Shown piece by piece: positions 7,278-26,770 of a stretch of 34,953 nucleotides of DNA. The notes beneath the pieces are model-generated. The model was not told the origin of the DNA. It saw only the letters and a program-made list of their open reading frames with translations, and searched no databases. Made by a program: the position numbers and the translations under genes. Origin of the DNA: a virus; the IMG/VR virus record IMGVR_UViG_3300009686_000010, positions 1-34,953 of that record, one strand, 5' to 3'. How positions within the stretch are numbered: position 1 is the stretch's first letter; each line of letters begins with the position of its first letter.

Positions 7278-8433
7278 AAATCCGCCCTTGCATAAACAGC
7301 GGGTGGCGTACCGCATTGCGTTCCAGCAACGCGATCTCTGTCAGCCCCAGCTCGTAGGCCAGCACCACGCTCGGCGTGGCATGCACCACATCACGCACCA
7401 ACTGCGCATCCAATACCTGCGCCTGCAGCGCCGTCATAAACGCAGCCCGTGCATTCGCCGTCGCGGCGAACAACGCATCGTTCATTTTTGGCATCACCAC
7501 ATCCAGGGCGGACAGCACCGCCGCCTGCGCCGTATCGCGCGCGGCTGCACTGCTGTAGTCAGCCAGCGCCACGTTCATGGCCGCGCTGGCCATCAGCGTC
7601 GCCCGCATCACAGAATCTGCCTGCATATTTGTTTTTTGCGCTTGAGAATCAACGCCTACCAGAGACTCATTCGCCGCAGCCACAGCGCTACGGGCCAGAG
7701 CCGACACAACCCGCACCCGGTCCGTGTCTGACAGATCATCCGGCGCCAGGCCAAACGCAGCCGCCAAGTTAAGCATCATGGCGGCATACTCGCCAGGCAG
7801 TGCCAGAACTTCGGCCACCATCGACTTCACACTGTCAATCAGTCCTATGACCTGCTGGGCCCAAGTCAGTGGCAAGCGTGCCATGGACAGCATATTGCGC
7901 ACCCCACTCAGTGCACCTTGCACGCGAGCAACAAAACTGGACAGCGCATTGGCCGACATTTTTTTAGGTTCTACGACCGCTTCCGCCTTCATTTTCTGGA
8001 CGGCCCCAAACGCTGTATCCACCGCGTCCACATACGGCACAGACGGCGCTTGGCCACCCGGTACAAAGTCAACCGTCACAGAGCAGTAACCACCCTTGTC
8101 GGTGCTTTCATGCACGCTCCAGGTGTGTGCCCGCGCCCATACCTGGCCCAGCCAAGGGTGCGTCAGCCAGCCCGCGCCGGTCTGGCCCAGCAACAGCAAA
8201 AACTTATTGCGCTGCCGGTCATACTGCGCGCCGATGAAATAGGCAGTCAGCTTGTAGCCATCCGCCTTGGCGCCCAGGTCCTCCACCGCCGGTTCATCCG
8301 CTCCGGGCAAATCCGTAACCACCAAGCGCTGACCATGCTGGCTATCGTGACTATCTGTCGAAAACTCAAAACCACGCCACTTGGCGCGCTGCAGGCGGTC
8401 GAGCCAAGTTTTTTTGTCTTCTTTGGATACCAT
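7270..8433 (-). CDS. Mu gp43-like protein (DNA circularisation N family)
   Basis: This 387-residue protein has the DNA_circ_N domain in its first 140 residues (MVSKEDKKTWLDRLQRAKWRGFEF... WSVHESTDKGGYCSVTVDFVP). The rest is helical. Despite the family name it is a tail/baseplate protein in Mu-like phages, probably acting with the tape measure and hub. It is shorter than Mu gp43. The start overlaps the tape measure stop by one base. Confidence 0.9.
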   Translation of the reverse strand: MVSKEDKKTWLDRLQRAKWRGFEFSTDSHDSQHGQRLVVTDLPGADEPAVEDLGAKADGYKLTAYFIGAQYDRQRNKFLLLLGQTGAGWLTHPWLGQVWARAHTWSVHESTDKGGYCSVTVDFVPGGQAPSVPYVDAVDTAFGAVQKMKAEAVVEPKKMSANALSSFVARVQGALSGVRNMLSMARLPLTWAQQVIGLIDSVKSMVAEVLALPGEYAAMMLNLAAAFGLAPDDLSDTDRVRVVSALARSAVAAANESLVGVDSQAQKTNMQADSVMRATLMASAAMNVALADYSSAAARDTAQAAVLSALDVVMPKMNDALFAATANARAAFMTALQAQVLDAQLVRDVVHATPSVVLAYELGLTEIALLERNAVRHPLFMQGRIYG

Positions 8434-10574
8434 TACATGCCCCCGTTCATGATGTTGCCGGTGTTCATGCGCACGTTGGCCCCGTTGGCCTGAATGGACT
8501 GGCTATAAAGCACCAATCCCGGCGCGAGGCCCACCGTCATATTTGCATTCACATCGACGGGCTTGGATGGCTCAGGCGGCGGTGCAACTGGCTCTGCAGG
8601 CTTGGCTTTTAGGCTTTCATACACCAAGCCCAATACACCCCCCACCGCTGCGCCAACAGCGGTGCCCAACACTGGAATCACGCTGCCAATAAAAGCACCG
8701 GTAGCCGCACCATTAAGAGCCGATGACCCGTAACGAGAGACTGCAGACTCTTCACCAAAAGCCGCATTCAAACCCGCGCCACCGACGACGGCGCCCACCC
8801 CAAGAATGCCGGCGCGGCCCATTGCTTTTCCGCTTGGCAGATACTGCATTGCCCGGCCGGCTGCATTGTTGATTGCGCTGCCTTTGGTTCCGCCACCCAG
8901 TGTTAACGCCGCCAGTCCGGCCGCACCCGCAACAGCGGTCAGTCCGGTAGCCGCCAAAATCGTTCCCCCAGTCAGCGCGGGGTATTTGCTCGCCAAATTG
9001 CTAAACGCTTCAGCGGCTTTACCAATGGCCGGGGTCAGTCCGTCGAGGGCCGCTTTCTCTGCGACCTTCTTATCTTCCCCGGCTTGCTCAAGTTTGAAAT
9101 CTGACGTGCCGGCAATCACGCCATACGAGCCGGTCACCTCCGATCTCGCGTCAGTCTTTCCGTATTGGCCTCTGGTTTTGTCCAGCACATCAGCTACATA
9201 GCTTTGGTTATTCAGCAGTCCTAAAAACCCGGCCAGAGACTGCTGATTATGAAACACCTTGCCAATGGCCGTACCTTGCATTTGTGCCGCCATGGACTCA
9301 ATCACGGTGCGCTGGCCGTCCTTATCGTCTTTAGGAACAGCTTTCAATTTGGCTTGCAAAGTCTGATATTTTTTGTCTTTTGAGATGATCTTCTCCATCA
9401 TCTCGATGGTGGCGGACACCTTGTCCACACCACGGCTCTGGTAGTCCAGAAACACATCGTCCACCGACTTCATGGCAGACTCTTTTTGCCCCTTCTTCAA
9501 GTGGTGGCCGCCATTCATGTACTGCTGCGCCATGAACCCGGTGAAGTGCCCCGAGTTCAACTCACTCAACAAATCCTTCAGGTTGTTGCCTGCTTCGTCT
9601 TTGGTGCCAGACGTAATCACAGACGCTTGGTTCCACGCCATCAATTTGGCAATGCCATCCTTGCCGCTCAGTCCAAGATTTCCCGCCATCGCCATTTGCT
9701 GGGGTAACCACTTCGCCATATCCTTGAGCTCAAACCCGCCTGCTTGGCCCGACACCATCGCGGCGCTCAGCACCGCAGGCAAGTCTTCCGCTTTGATTTT
9801 GAAACTCTGCTTTGAGCGAATTGCAATATTTGCCAACTCACTCGCGCTTGCGCCCGACGCTGTCGATGCTTTCATGATCCCCGGCAACATGGCCATCGCG
9901 TCACGGTCTGAAACTGTTCCCGACGCAATCAATTTATCCAACGCTTCGGCCGCTTGCTCACGGGTGCCGCCACCAAACTTACGTGCTGAGTTGATAGACC
10001 CCTCCAGCGTGGTCATGCCGATCTTTCGCCCCGTCGCATCTCGCTCTGAATAGGCCGTGTTAGCCATATTCGCCAACCGGCGGTCATAACTAATAGCCTC
10101 TTTGACAGGTGCCTGCAGCACGTACTTACCAGCCACAACACCCGCCACCACTGCGCCGCCCACCTGCAACGCCTTGGCGCCACGGGCCTGCTGCTCGGCA
10201 CTGCGGGCCGCTTTATCTTGCGCCGCTGTGAGTTTGCCCATTTCATTCGTTAGCTTCGTCACCTTGCTCGTAGTGGCGTCCAACGCGCGGGCCTGTTCCT
10301 GGGCGCTAAGCTTGCCTGCGACCATCAGGCGTTTGTAGGCCGCCTCGGTCTGTGCAATCTCGCGTTGAATGCGCTGCTCACTGCGCACGCCCAGCAGCTC
10401 ACGCGCTTGGGATGTGCGCTCATAGCTGGTGCGTTGGCGGGCATTGCCCTGCTCAACTGCCGCAGTTGTTTTACCAAATGCCTGCTGCTGCTTCTGAGCC
10501 GCCTTGTCTATGCCTGGTGTCGCGCTGTCTTGCAACGCAATACGGACGGCTACATCTACCGCCGCGCCGCTCAC
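8433..10574 (-). CDS. Tail tape measure protein (Mu gp42-like)
   Basis: A 713-residue protein that sets tail length. It starts at a GTG (10574) with AGGGG seven bases upstream. The N-terminus (1-130) is coiled coil rich in Gln, Ala and Lys. Hydrophobic segments lie near 135-155 and between about 540 and 670, including several Gly/Ala-rich stretches such as GSVIPVLGTAVGAAVGGVLG. The end has a Met/Asn-rich tail. A hairpin with T-run lies between it and the upstream chaperone gene, so it may be transcribed at a lower level. Confidence 0.92.
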   Translation of the reverse strand: MSGAAVDVAVRIALQDSATPGIDKAAQKQQQAFGKTTAAVEQGNARQRTSYERTSQARELLGVRSEQRIQREIAQTEAAYKRLMVAGKLSAQEQARALDATTSKVTKLTNEMGKLTAAQDKAARSAEQQARGAKALQVGGAVVAGVVAGKYVLQAPVKEAISYDRRLANMANTAYSERDATGRKIGMTTLEGSINSARKFGGGTREQAAEALDKLIASGTVSDRDAMAMLPGIMKASTASGASASELANIAIRSKQSFKIKAEDLPAVLSAAMVSGQAGGFELKDMAKWLPQQMAMAGNLGLSGKDGIAKLMAWNQASVITSGTKDEAGNNLKDLLSELNSGHFTGFMAQQYMNGGHHLKKGQKESAMKSVDDVFLDYQSRGVDKVSATIEMMEKIISKDKKYQTLQAKLKAVPKDDKDGQRTVIESMAAQMQGTAIGKVFHNQQSLAGFLGLLNNQSYVADVLDKTRGQYGKTDARSEVTGSYGVIAGTSDFKLEQAGEDKKVAEKAALDGLTPAIGKAAEAFSNLASKYPALTGGTILAATGLTAVAGAAGLAALTLGGGTKGSAINNAAGRAMQYLPSGKAMGRAGILGVGAVVGGAGLNAAFGEESAVSRYGSSALNGAATGAFIGSVIPVLGTAVGAAVGGVLGLVYESLKAKPAEPVAPPPEPSKPVDVNANMTVGLAPGLVLYSQSIQANGANVRMNTGNIMNGGM

Positions 10575-10611: not shown

Positions 10612-10642
10612 AAGCCCCATACACATTCAGTGCATGGAGCTT
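10612..10642 (-). terminator. Hairpin with T-run between tail chaperone and tape measure
   Basis: A 13-bp stem (10630-10642 with 10612-10624, two G-U pairs on the leftward transcript) and a five-base loop is followed on the minus strand by seven T residues. It therefore looks like an intrinsic terminator inside the tail operon. It could reduce tape measure expression relative to tube and chaperone. The other strand has a weaker T-run. Confidence 0.7.
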
Positions 10643-10696
10643 AATTTTTAGGGCCGCGTGCGTATGCGCGGGAAATAGTTCAGTCGGTGGTCACCC

Positions 10697-11127
10697 TCAA
10701 AACTCTTTGCCCACCATCACGGCAGATACCCGCGCCCATACATACAACTCGCGCAGAGATAGGGCCTTCACCACGGGCAGCGGCTGGTGCATCACGCTGG
10801 TCACCAGCGCCACCGCCCGCACCACGCGCACTACTTTTTTTCCAGTACCTTGGCGGGTTCAACCGTCTCACCGCCCTCGGCTTCAGCTTCGTCCTCTTTC
10901 ATCAGGCGGTCCACTTCGGTCTCAGCGCGCCGGTAGTCCACACCGCGCAGTCGTTTAATCACTTCCTCGTCTGTTCCTGCCACGCTGGCAATCAGCGCAA
11001 TGCGCTGGGCCACACCGCCGCGCTGGTCAAAGGCAAGATAGTCGGCGGCAATCGTGTGGTCACGCAGATTCAGTTCGGTCAACTCAATTTTGCCGATATT
11101 GAGCGGGTATCGTAGTTTCAGCTTCAT
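10697..11127 (-). CDS. Tail assembly chaperone, -1 frameshift fusion product (gp41-41')
   Basis: The 98-codon gp41-like frame ends GAA AAA AAG TAG. Slipping back one base on A-AAA-AAG (10840-10834) continues in the -1 frame for 42 codons to the TGA at 10697-10699. The extension contains LSLRELYVWARVSAVM, resembling the GpE (P2 E') family of frameshifted chaperone tails. Myophages make a short chaperone and a longer fusion from such a site, and the fusion binds the tape measure. This extension is read directly from the bases; the slip itself is inferred. Confidence 0.75.
10831..11127 (-). CDS. Tail assembly chaperone, Mu gp41-like (unshifted product)
   Basis: A 98-residue protein starting MKLKLRYPLNIGKIEL, with LTELNLRDHTIAADY typical of phage tail assembly chaperones of the gp41 / P2 E type. 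The C-terminus is acidic then lysine-rich (EAEGGETVEPAKVLEKK). It lies between tube (gp40-like) and tape measure as in Mu. The stop directly follows a perfect slippery heptamer, and a longer frameshift product is described separately. Confidence 0.85.
   Translation of the reverse strand: MKLKLRYPLNIGKIELTELNLRDHTIAADYLAFDQRGGVAQRIALIASVAGTDEEVIKRLRGVDYRRAETEVDRLMKEDEAEAEGGETVEPAKVLEKK
10834..10840 (-). other. Programmed -1 frameshift site (A AAA AAG)
   Basis: On the minus strand the zero frame reads GAA AAA AAG TAG, so the canonical heptamer A-AAA-AAG lies in register and the next codon is a stop. The -1 frame beyond it stays open for 42 codons and encodes a GpE-like segment. The downstream RNA is GC-rich and could fold, but no single pseudoknot was identified. 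Confidence 0.75.
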
Positions 11128-11134
11128 CGTGCGC

Positions 11135-11494
11135 TTACATCGGTTCGCTAACGTTGCTGGTCAAGGTCAGCTTGCTTTCGCCGTCGCCCACCGGCACCAC
11201 ATCGCTGGCAAACGCCTGGCCCATCATGTGGACCGTGCCATCGCTCAGTCGCACGGTCACATTCTCATCTTTGATCGCATTCAAAGATGCGACATTAATG
11301 CCAGGCGTTAAATGGATATTGAGCTCGGCAACAGCAGGTGTACTGGTCTCTGTGTAGCCGCCGTCCTCGGCCAAACGACCCGCTTTGTGTTCACGCTTCA
11401 CGCCCGACGGCTTGAATGTGCCGGGGTTTTGTGCCAGCGGAAGCTTGCCAATGCTGGGCACACTCACGGTTTTGATATTGACAATTTGAGCCAT
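11135..11494 (-). CDS. Tail tube protein (Mu gpM / gp40-like)
   Basis: A 119-residue tube subunit. KPSGVKREHKAGRLAEDGGYTETSTPAVAEL is characteristic of the Mu gpM/FluMu tube family, followed by beta-rich SLNAIKDENVTVRLSDG. It lies directly downstream of the sheath gene, as in contractile phages. It forms the inner tube through which DNA passes. Confidence 0.92.
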   Translation of the reverse strand: MAQIVNIKTVSVPSIGKLPLAQNPGTFKPSGVKREHKAGRLAEDGGYTETSTPAVAELNIHLTPGINVASLNAIKDENVTVRLSDGTVHMMGQAFASDVVPVGDGESKLTLTSNVSEPM

Positions 11495-15406: not shown

Positions 15407-15832
15407 TTACTTCTTGGCGGCCAGGAAGGCTTCGGGCGTCACACCCATGCGGGTGCAGGCAGCCAGCTCAACCTCGCTCAGACCAGCGCCACCACCTTGC
15501 CCGCCTGCAGGCGCCTGTCGGTCTTTGTTCACGATGGGCGCGGTGGCGTCCAGGAATTCAGTCAGAACGGCCAGGCTTTGCTTTTCAGCCCACGGCTTTT
15601 GCGCCGGGGCCAAGCGCCCATCGGTCAAGGCGGCAGTCATCAGTTCGCCATGCTTGTCTTTTTCAGCCTGTGCGGTCAGGGCGGCAAGCCCGGTCTTGGC
15701 CGTGTCGCGCTCACTGGTCAGCGCGGCTACCTGGGCGGTCAATGCCGCCATCGATGTGGCGACGGGTGCCGCTTGCGCCTTGAGTGCATCACGCTCACTG
15801 GTCAGCGCTGCAATTTGCTGGTCTTTATCCAT
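15407..15832 (-). CDS. Internal in-frame scaffold protein (Mu gpZ-like)
   Basis: The ATG at 15832 (codon 191 of the protease gene, MDKDQQIAALTSERD) is preceded by AAAGGA at about seven bases, giving a 141-residue product identical to the scaffold part. Mu makes gpZ in the same way from the 3' part of gene I. The coil region has LTSERD repeated. Separate expression is inferred from this ribosome site and the Mu precedent. Confidence 0.68.
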   Translation of the reverse strand: MDKDQQIAALTSERDALKAQAAPVATSMAALTAQVAALTSERDTAKTGLAALTAQAEKDKHGELMTAALTDGRLAPAQKPWAEKQSLAVLTEFLDATAPIVNKDRQAPAGGQGGGAGLSEVELAACTRMGVTPEAFLAAKK

Positions 15833-16402
15833 CTCGGAATCCTTTGTAGAGTGGGTTGGTGTTGAAAAAACAGACCGCGACAAAGCCGCCCGTGCGCTCA
15901 AAGCGTCCAGGCCGTCCAGTGCGGGGGTATTGGTCAGGGCGACGGAAATAATCTCCAGCACCTCGCCAGTGCTCGGGTAGTAGGTGAATACGGCGCTGAT
16001 GTAGCGGTACTCTTTTTCAGCAATGCACTCGGCGGCGTCAGCCGTCCAAGCAATGCCGGTGGCATACAAACCAGCGTCGCGCCAGGACAAGGCCTTGAAC
16101 CAACCCGCAGCTGGTGCCGGTTGCCCGTTGAATTCCTTGAGCAAGCTTTGGTGCTCATAGTCAATCAACACATCATTTTTCTGAACGGCCATGCGCTCAA
16201 TCACACGCTTTGCAATGACCGTATCAAGTGCCCACGCCTCGCAGTCAAAAGGACGGCCATCAATAGAGCGGAACGGGCCGGGCGGCAGCAGGTGCGCCTC
16301 GGTGGGCACCGCCTTCAGGCCAGCGGCGTCGGGCTCACCCGGCTCCAGCATGAAAGACATGCTGGCCGTGCTGACCTGTTGCTGTTTGTTTTTTTCTGAC
16401 AC
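15407..16402 (-). CDS. Prohead protease with C-terminal scaffold (Mu gpI)
   Basis: A 331-residue protein starting at GTG with GGAG eight bases upstream. The N-terminal protease domain (about 15-165) includes VLIDYEHQS (H84) and YISAVFTYYPSTGEV (S136), probable catalytic residues of the phage protease family. From about 190 on the protein is a helical scaffold with repeated LTSERD and LTAQ units. It cuts the scaffold and matures the head. It is the first gene of the leftward late operon, just downstream of a terminator and a candidate activator site. Confidence 0.92.
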   Translation of the reverse strand: MSEKNKQQQVSTASMSFMLEPGEPDAAGLKAVPTEAHLLPPGPFRSIDGRPFDCEAWALDTVIAKRVIERMAVQKNDVLIDYEHQSLLKEFNGQPAPAAGWFKALSWRDAGLYATGIAWTADAAECIAEKEYRYISAVFTYYPSTGEVLEIISVALTNTPALDGLDALSARAALSRSVFSTPTHSTKDSEMDKDQQIAALTSERDALKAQAAPVATSMAALTAQVAALTSERDTAKTGLAALTAQAEKDKHGELMTAALTDGRLAPAQKPWAEKQSLAVLTEFLDATAPIVNKDRQAPAGGQGGGAGLSEVELAACTRMGVTPEAFLAAKK

Positions 16403-16451: not shown

Positions 16452-16470
16452 CTTAGAAAAACGCGGGAAA
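16452..16470 (-). promoter_or_regulatory. Candidate activator site for leftward late operon
   Basis: The minus strand reads TTTCCCGCGTTTTTCTAAG, ending 49 bases before the GTG of the protease gene. It matches 15 of 19 positions of a motif at 26331-26349 upstream of the other late operon. A palindrome GAAACGTTTC overlaps its start. No strong -35 element with proper -10 is seen, as in activator-dependent Mu late promoters. Confidence 0.5.
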
Positions 16471-16488
16471 CGTTTCAGACCCAAAAAC

Positions 16489-16640: not shown

Positions 16641-17162
16641 CTAGAAATCAAAAAAATCAATCTGGCGGCGTTTGAACTCTGCGGCCGCAGCTTCTTTGGG
16701 CCGCGTCACATCGCCCTCGACCTGTTTAAAAATATTGAGCACTTGGCGCGTGGTCAGCGCATGGGCTTGGGCAATGTCACGAGCTGTGCGCTCACCCCGG
16801 TCACGCGCAATTTGTTCGTTTCGGTATTTCAAAAACAACTTGTCCACCTTGGGCAAGGTGATACGCCGGGTCTCGGTCAGGTGCGGCTCCAGCACCTGGC
16901 GCAAGCGCGCCATCTCATCGGGGCTCAGCCCCCACGCGGCCGTCTTGAGTGCGGGCACCCAGATCGGCGCACCGCCCCGGCTTTCCAGAAACTCACGCGC
17001 CCGTCCAAAACCCAGCGCCCGCACCACGGCACGCAGCACGGGCGGCAGCGTGGTCAACAGCTCATCGTCCACCCCCGGCCACTGCTGCACGGCATTGTCC
17101 GGGCGGGCTTCGCGGTGCGCGGGCTGGCGGGCGCCTCGTTTTTTCATGGACGGCCCAGCCAT
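16641..17162 (-). CDS. mor: Mor/C-family transcription activator
   Basis: A 173-residue protein in the place of Mu mor. The middle (GFGRAREFLESRGGAPIWVP, 51-70) matches the Mor N-terminal dimer domain, and the end carries a helix-turn-helix (TARDIAQAHALTTRQVLNIF, about 126-145). Mor and C activate middle and late promoters. Only one gene of this family is present, so it may do both jobs. It overlaps GemA by 19 bases. An inner ATG at 17147 is possible. The N-terminal 35 residues are longer than in Mu Mor (129 residues). Confidence 0.88.
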   Translation of the reverse strand: MAGPSMKKRGARQPAHREARPDNAVQQWPGVDDELLTTLPPVLRAVVRALGFGRAREFLESRGGAPIWVPALKTAAWGLSPDEMARLRQVLEPHLTETRRITLPKVDKLFLKYRNEQIARDRGERTARDIAQAHALTTRQVLNIFKQVEGDVTRPKEAAAAEFKRRQIDFFDF

Positions 17163-26261: not shown

Positions 26262-26330
26262 GCCGAACTCCTGTTGGAAATATGGTTGCCATTGCACCAT
26301 CCTGCTCATAGCCTGTCACCCCGCGAAGCA

Positions 26331-26349
26331 TTTCCCACGCTTACCTAAG
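26331..26349 (+). promoter_or_regulatory. Candidate activator site for rightward late operon
   Basis: TTTCCCACGCTTACCTAAG lies 67 bases before the holin start and matches 15 of 19 bases of the motif before protease I (16452-16470, minus strand). The preceding GAAGC also aligns with GAAAC there. It could be the Mor/C binding site shared by both late promoters. Confidence 0.5.
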
Positions 26350-26368
26350 CCGCTAACCCAAACACACT

Positions 26369-26416: not shown

Positions 26417-26770
26417 ATGGGTGTTCCGCGTCTCTTTGGTTGGCTTTTTCTCACACTTGTTTTTTTACTGCTGGCGCTGTTGCTGCAAGCTACATGGCCG
26501 GGTAGCGTCATGGCTGTTACGGCCTACAAAGTGCATTTAATGGCGCTTGGTGGTTGGGGCGGCTACTGGCTGGACCGTGCCCTGTTTCCGTATGACCGCC
26601 CGCACACGTATTTGCTGGACGATCAGCCCGAGATTGATGACGGCAGGCCAAGCGGCCAGGCTACGCAAGTATCTGGCGTCATCCTCACTGCGGGCACCTT
26701 CAGCCAGTCCATGTTGCGCCGCGCCATCATCGTGGCCGCTTGCCTGATCTGCGTCGGTCTGGGCGCCTGA
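26417..26770 (+). CDS. Putative holin
   Basis: A 117-residue membrane protein with hydrophobic segments at about 7-27, 36-56 and 101-116. The motif YKVHLMALGGWGGYWLDRALFPYDRPH recurs in the putative holin of Burkholderia-type Mu phages. It sits before endolysin and Rz/Rz1. It would make holes in the inner membrane at the end of infection. AAGG lies upstream of ATG. Function is inferred from context. Confidence 0.72.
   Translation: MGVPRLFGWLFLTLVFLLLALLLQATWPGSVMAVTAYKVHLMALGGWGGYWLDRALFPYDRPHTYLLDDQPEIDDGRPSGQATQVSGVILTAGTFSQSMLRRAIIVAACLICVGLGA

Follow-up and report, generated by a model that had tools for sequence, protein, structure and literature searches.

A predicted −1 frameshift in the tail chaperone gene of a Mu-like phage group and a candidate late promoter with a built-in RNA lock

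The window analysed here is the whole of the viral IMG/VR record IMGVR_UViG_3300009686_000010, 34,953 nt in length. It carries genes of the Mu type, among them capsid gpT, protease I, gp36, a tail terminator, tail tube, chaperone, tape measure and gpN/gpP-like proteins, and the sheath is represented by a weak Pfam match below the cut-off. The chaperone gene is flanked by the tail tube and tape measure genes, the same position that it holds in P2 and Mu, and the features of this stretch are as follows.

11135..11494, minus strand: tail tube protein, the 5′ neighbour of the chaperone (PF10618, E 1.3e-10)
10831..11127, minus strand: tail assembly chaperone, 0-frame product of 98 aa (PF10109 Phage_TAC_7, E 4.9e-7; PHROG 166 tail protein, E 5.1e-8)
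10834..10840, minus strand: slippery heptamer A_AAA_AAG, in register, the last two sense codons before TAG (read from the sequence)
10697..10834, minus strand: −1 frame extension of 45 codons followed by TGA (alignment with 28 relatives, whose identity to the window is 38-80%)
8433..10574, minus strand: tape measure protein with a GTG start, the 3′ neighbour of the chaperone (PHROG 794, E 2.2e-152; PF10145, E 6.4e-22)

The chaperone scores 30.1 bits against PF10109 (cut-off 25), a family whose description reads ‘E, or 41 or 14’. As the initial annotation had claimed, A AAA AAG sits in register directly before the stop (10840-10834, minus strand): the 3′ end of the ORF reads GAA AAA AAG TAG, with the TAG at 10833-10831. 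Reading in the −1 frame passes this stop without interruption, from 10834 to 10700, until a TGA at 10699-10697. A slip on A_AAA_AAG would thus add 45 residues (VVRVVRAVALVTSVMHQPLPVVKALSLRELYVWARVSAVMVGKEF) rather than the 42 codons first counted, and the predicted slip product is a 143-aa fusion of the 98-aa chaperone ORF with the 45 codons read after the slip. In 30 window ORFs, which together offer 8603 codon positions, A_AAA_AAR occurs in register once, at the chaperone slip site. An open −1 frame of this length is unremarkable in a single sequence taken alone; weight beyond chance comes from the 70 loci that carry the extension and from the selection test described below.

Searching with the chaperone protein gave 19 loci in viral contigs and nine in bacterial genomes, the latter including Rhodoferax, Methylomonas, Thiobacillus and Azonexus, and an alignment of 29 chaperones raised the viral loci to 61 altogether. 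Together with the window, the 61 viral and nine genomic loci make 71, one of which (L076) ends inside the gene. The frame census was kept free of any choice of motif: a profile of the extension was compared with three-frame translations, and the frame and shift region were then inspected. Of these loci, 29 had gone into the profile, and the remainder are the independent part of the census. The extension was present in 70 of the 71 loci, and 69 of those 70 have it in the −1 frame, preceded by a slippery heptamer in register. These 69 loci, which form 51 clusters at 90% identity, carry AAAAAAG (62 loci, three of them with an extra heptamer-like string upstream), AAAAAAA (3), GGGAAAG (3) or GGGAAAA (1), that is, 65 sites of the form A_AAA_AAR and four of the form G_GGA_AAR. 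The latter, which we take to be the lambda-type slip site, replaces A_AAA_AAR in 3 of the 51 clusters, and the −1 extension is kept there. From the heptamer to the 0-frame stop there are 0 to 10 codons (0 in 36/69), and this variable distance indicates that the heptamer is maintained separately from the stop. Absence of the heptamer from relatives had been named in advance as evidence against a frameshift, and it was seen in a single locus: L048 (3227-3448), the sole relative in which the extension is in the +1/−2 frame, at AGC AAA AGC GGC, with no canonical heptamer. In L048 the shift may truly have changed direction, or the contig may have been misassembled.

The chaperone protein search of named phages returned no match, and the distant named relatives SuMu, 3927AP2 and ST405-OXA48phi1.1 were found through a tape measure search. 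In 3927AP2 (L023), ST405-OXA48phi1.1 (L024) and SuMu (L025), an A-run in the chaperone is accompanied by a −1 extension across the stop, and no fusion is listed. The expectation that standard annotation would miss the extension holds for these three, whose records give two separate hypothetical proteins. In L002, L015, L017, L019, L036, L037, L044, L061, L068, L070 and L073, other genes have apparently been inserted right after the extension, so that the junction looks a favoured place for extra (moron-like) genes.

Selection on the −1 frame, proposed as a check on the reading, was evident among the relatives. With two duplicates and two sequences of differing length left out of the 29, the remaining 25 gave, for the extension codons 3′ of the overlap region, a pN/pS of 0.46 when read in the −1 frame, against 0.91 (0 frame) and 1.71 (third frame). 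The same codons held 66 stops in the 0 frame and 14 in the third frame, and −1 frame stops, which would have spoken against the reading, numbered zero in the 25 extensions over the codons tested. These comparisons indicate that the extension is under purifying selection in the −1 frame only. None of the Pfam matches in the 29 extension members was relevant: the few obtained, from single members, were weak (E 0.016 or worse, TPR_WDR35 and YscG among them) and were put down to chance.

From this conservation, we consider it very probable that a programmed −1 frameshift at A_AAA_AAG makes both the chaperone and the 143-aa fusion. Most ribosomes would stop at TAG and release the 98-aa chaperone, which is seen as the ORF. 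In a minority, the two lysyl-tRNAs on A_AAA_AAG would re-pair one base back, and translation would continue for 45 codons to give the 143-aa fusion. By analogy with lambda, the short form may bind the tape measure protein and the fusion may recruit tube subunits.

The same fusion could in principle arise by transcriptional slippage, in which the run of As, seven in the window and eight in L007 and L008, gains an A in some mRNAs and ordinary ribosomes thereby enter the −1 frame. A-runs are described as prone to polymerase slippage (PMC3711429, excerpt), but the four loci (three clusters) with G_GGA_AAR have no long run and carry the same −1 extension, and the in-register X_XXY_YYZ is the arrangement required by tandem tRNA slippage; we therefore regard slippage by the polymerase as unlikely. 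Still less probable is that the extension is a separate small gene reached by reinitiation at the chaperone stop. A start codon does overlap the stop in some loci, such as the TGATG of L017 and L019, and the first −1 codon is ATG, GTG or TTG in 10/69 loci, but in 7/69 the first possible −1 start is at the 13th codon or later, while near-invariant residues are found from codons 3 and 7, and reinitiation leaves the conservation of the heptamer without a reason. A −2 shift as in Mu, whose record annotates gp41 with a ‘verified −2 translational frameshift’, would suit the +1/−2 frame of L048, but 69/70 loci, the window among them, have the conserved extension in the −1 frame, which refutes the −2 reading for the window; we give it almost no credence. 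No more can be given to a sequencing or assembly error in the A-run that splits one longer gene: homopolymers are error-prone, but the arrangement recurs in 9/9 bacterial-assembly loci and in 59/60 evaluable virus-contig loci (window excluded), including loci with no A-run.

Sequence bias around the predicted −1 slip extends beyond the heptamer. The base before AAA is A in 29/29 genes (GAA 16, CAA 9, AAA 3, GCA 1), although upstream in the same genes, uncorrected for kinship, GAA makes up 49% of GAA+GAG, CAA 21% of CAA+CAG and AAA 40% of AAA+AAG. A Shine-Dalgarno-like stretch 9-16 nt before the codon preceding the slip scored −6.37 kcal/mol versus −5.05 (sd 0.44) for synonymous controls, and 0/300 synonymous replicates reached the observed value (26/29 genes, near-identical ones dropped, kinship uncorrected); the region further upstream showed no such bias versus synonymous controls. 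The stretch may stimulate the slip, as the group statistics suggest, and the window’s own score is weak (−3.9). Conserved structure around or after the slip was sought with RNAalifold, which gave 0 consensus pairs in 25 sequences. Single-sequence folding z-scores after the slip had a mean of −1.34 over 26 genes and, ranging from −4.4 to +1.8, were not counted as evidence.

According to a review, tailed phages use −1, −2 or +1 shifts at the tail chaperone gene, Mu using −2, and the −1 frameshift of lambda G-GT is described in the same source (PMC5009743, excerpt). The window resembles lambda G-GT in the position of the gene before the tape measure, in the −1 direction and in a slip near the 3′ end, and it differs in its heptamer A_AAA_AAG, its PF10109 chaperone and its 45-codon extension without a family match. 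A −1 shift is also annotated in the P2 record. The slip heptamer of P2 E-E′ is T_TTT_TTG. P2 shares with the window the predicted −1 shift and, through the naming of E in the PF10109 description, the chaperone family, but not the heptamer. Compared with P2 E′, the extension profile aligned over 34 ungapped columns with E 3.7e-4 (single comparison) and a probability of 36%, a weak similarity that makes homology to P2 E′ plausible but not proved. The GpE-like label first given to the extension survives to that degree, and the window extension itself has no Pfam or PHROG match. Within the Mu-type tail module, Mu gp41 and the window chaperone stand at equivalent places, but the window’s predicted shift is −1 and its slip sequence is different; the profile comparison with the Mu extension was not significant (E 0.013, probability 3%). 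For the Mu-like phage KS10, its authors report in the available excerpt that no slip site was found (PMC2628397). Escherichia coli dnaX frameshifting uses A_AAA_AAG (PMC3711429, excerpt), the same heptamer as in this clade, and the upstream Shine-Dalgarno-like bias, seen in the clade as a group and weak in the window, may be a further resemblance; unlike dnaX, the clade is without a conserved downstream hairpin, and the gene and its purpose are different.

The position, the PF10109 family, the conserved in-register heptamer and the selected −1 extension assign the clade to the known G-GT/E-E′ kind of frameshift as an added member, the further point being that a Mu-like clade very probably shifts by −1. 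The tail G-GT type of mechanism proposed at the outset is thus supported, with the heptamer and −1 extension recurring in 69/70 loci and the genes in the order tube, chaperone, tape measure. This amounts to a base-exact prediction of an unannotated fusion protein in a Mu-like phage group, of interest since the same tail gene order goes with a predicted −1 here versus −2 in Mu. The +1/−2 frame of L048, the −1 clade and the −2 of Mu offer a natural series in which to ask how an extension can be retained as the direction of the shift changes.

In the interval that separates the extension from the tape measure gene, most relatives carry a palindrome with GC-rich arms, GGAAACRTTTCC, and, 40 nt further, a hairpin of the form AARCTCC...GGAGYTT with a T-run that lies directly before the tape-measure start. 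Palindrome and hairpin fall in one ungapped register at 54 loci (44 distinct sequences, 40 clusters), in which positions T−1, A0, C3 and T4 are invariant and A+11 is present in 78% of clusters. In L002 and L017, where other genes are inserted, the promoter pair is displaced downstream and precedes an ATG; the distance from the extension to the hairpin is 1458 nt in L002 and 396 nt in L017.

A palindrome matrix built from the tape-measure sites alone was then run on 24 records and found 96 palindromes, or 4.0 per genome, which by reading lie mostly before the tape measure, the lysis operon, gene I and a fourth tail gene. In 92/96, a hexamer at a fixed distance has A and T at places 2 and 6, as in a −10 element; this rule was chosen after 11 genomes and holds for 51/52 palindromes in the 13 later genomes. 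A strict pattern of half-palindrome plus TAANCT was matched in 22/24 whole records and the reversed pattern in 0. The reading of the palindrome as an RNA hairpin was dropped in view of its constant spacing from the −10-like element. The corresponding features of the window are listed below.

10671..10682, minus strand: degenerate palindrome copy TGAACTATTTCC, 40 nt before the hairpin (match with 3 mismatches)
10638..10643, minus strand: −10-like hexamer TAAGCT, which shares bases with the 5′ arm of the hairpin (putative promoter element)
10612..10642, minus strand: terminator-like 13-bp hairpin plus T-run, with a 3′ arm GGGG where most relatives have GGAG (−20.7 kcal/mol, z −6.5)
16466..16477, minus strand: palindrome copy TGAAACGTTTCC before gene I (start 16402), with a −10-like GACACT at 16438-16433 (PWM 23.8)
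16641..17162, minus strand: candidate Mor/C-type late activator gene (weak PF08765 match, E 0.037, below cut-off)
26324..26335, plus strand: palindrome copy CGAAGCATTTCC before the holin gene, with a −10-like CACACT at 26363-26368 (PWM 12.2)
26417-26770, plus strand: holin gene (PF13272, E 3.8e-24)

The window thus has three palindromes with a −10-like hexamer, two of them low-scoring, and a further palindrome at 2753 on the minus strand without one. The copy at 10671..10682 is a single match with 3 mismatches to the palindrome plus −10, and 3/100 shuffles give such a match.

Mu C-dependent late promoters (Plys, PI, PP and Pmom) have an activator site upstream of −35 (PMC4461284, excerpt). Like them, the sites of this group place an activator-type site 5′ of a −10-like element before lysis, gene I and tail genes; in contrast to Mu, the group’s site is GGAAACRTTTCC and there is a copy before the tape measure. 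Within one mismatch, the palindrome is absent in Mu, 3927AP2, ST405-OXA48phi1.1, SuMu and KS10, and TJ1 has one single-mismatch copy. Genes matching PF08765 (Mor/C) were found in 14/24 records at E up to 0.001, eight of them over the cut-off, and none in the window at that level; in the relatives compared they adjoin the gene I site, and the window candidate at 16641..17162 is at the same place. The sites resemble Mu C-dependent late promoters, with both promoter and activator predicted, and, as judged from sequence, the group would carry a newly seen type of late promoter before the tape measure.

The hairpin at these sites appears suited to closing the ribosome binding site. We measured this lock in 91 distinct of 92 sites as the probability that the Shine-Dalgarno sequence is paired to bases no later than +12, which lie before or at the start site as predicted, not mapped. 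The probability was at least 0.5 at 22/23 tape-measure, 22/24 gene I and 18/21 lysis sites (62/68 together), versus shuffled-arm means of 1, 2 and 3 sites, respectively; since the tape-measure class had been chosen by its hairpin and supplied the matrix, only the gene I and lysis classes are independent. By eye, a few sites (G010 15377 and G023 26976) are put in the wrong class by the automatic labels, and G002 7101 fits none of the classes. At the P4 sites, which by reading lie inside the 3′ end of the upstream gene, the lock was found in 2/16 evaluable sites (7/23 were not evaluable). Position +2, within the −10 hexamer, pairs in 49/52 distinct sites with a CTCC-type arm, where shuffles gave 31.9 on average and 38 at most, in a count that took five pair types, G-T included.

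A strict terminator pattern stands before the tape measure in 31/68 loci, with a background of 9 in 418,564 nt. We rejected a plain terminator as the whole story because the lysis and gene I copies mostly have no U-run yet keep the Shine-Dalgarno pairing. The annotated lys and I late promoters of Mu (L142 and L143) fold similarly, with z-scores of −3.2 and −4.4; each hairpin opens just past the −10-like hexamer and reaches the start region, and the Mu lys start codon is inside the stem.

In the window, the lock values are 0.85 for gene I, 0.80 for lysis and 0.0 for the tape measure, which has its own Shine-Dalgarno sequence, starts some 35 nt past the hairpin and is preceded by a degenerate palindrome copy. 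The roughly 35 nt that separate the T-run from the tape-measure GTG (10611-10574, minus strand) are absent in L008 and hold a short ORF (ATG ... TGA) with a stop that overlaps the GTG. This stretch may have arisen by insertion, leaving the tape measure uncoupled from the hairpin.

On balance, we lean towards the view that this phage group gates its tape measure, gene I and lysis late genes by a promoter with a built-in RNA lock, and the lys and I promoters of Mu may do the same. The chaperone frameshift would end one transcription unit, and the tape measure would begin at a locked late promoter, where the −10/discriminator DNA would double as the anti-Shine-Dalgarno arm of the RNA hairpin. Read-through RNA from upstream would fold and go untranslated, or terminate; RNA begun at the activator-dependent late promoter would lack the anti-Shine-Dalgarno arm and be open for translation. 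T4 gene e offers a documented precedent, a late promoter within the 5′ arm of a hairpin that sequesters the ribosome binding site (PMC3014915, excerpt). There, the late start skips the sequestering arm, so that only late transcripts would be translated. In contrast to T4 gene e, the group has a sigma-70-like −10, a presumed C-type activator and three operons, including that of the tape measure.

The literature searched, mostly outside subscription journals, yielded no report of such a lock in Mu-like phages, nor of the palindrome letters. If the lock is real, one short DNA stretch encodes both transcription timing and the limiting of translation to those transcripts. Taken from sequence analysis, the promoter with its lock would be a more novel lead than the frameshift; the late-promoter element matters more widely, and it is testable in phage Mu of E. 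coli.

In the window, gene I (15407-16402, minus strand) and the gpG-like gene (PF05069, 33940-34557, plus strand), neighbours in Mu, are far apart and on opposite strands. The lysis site is likewise on the strand opposite to the gene I and tape-measure sites in several relatives, and this layout therefore seems common to the group.
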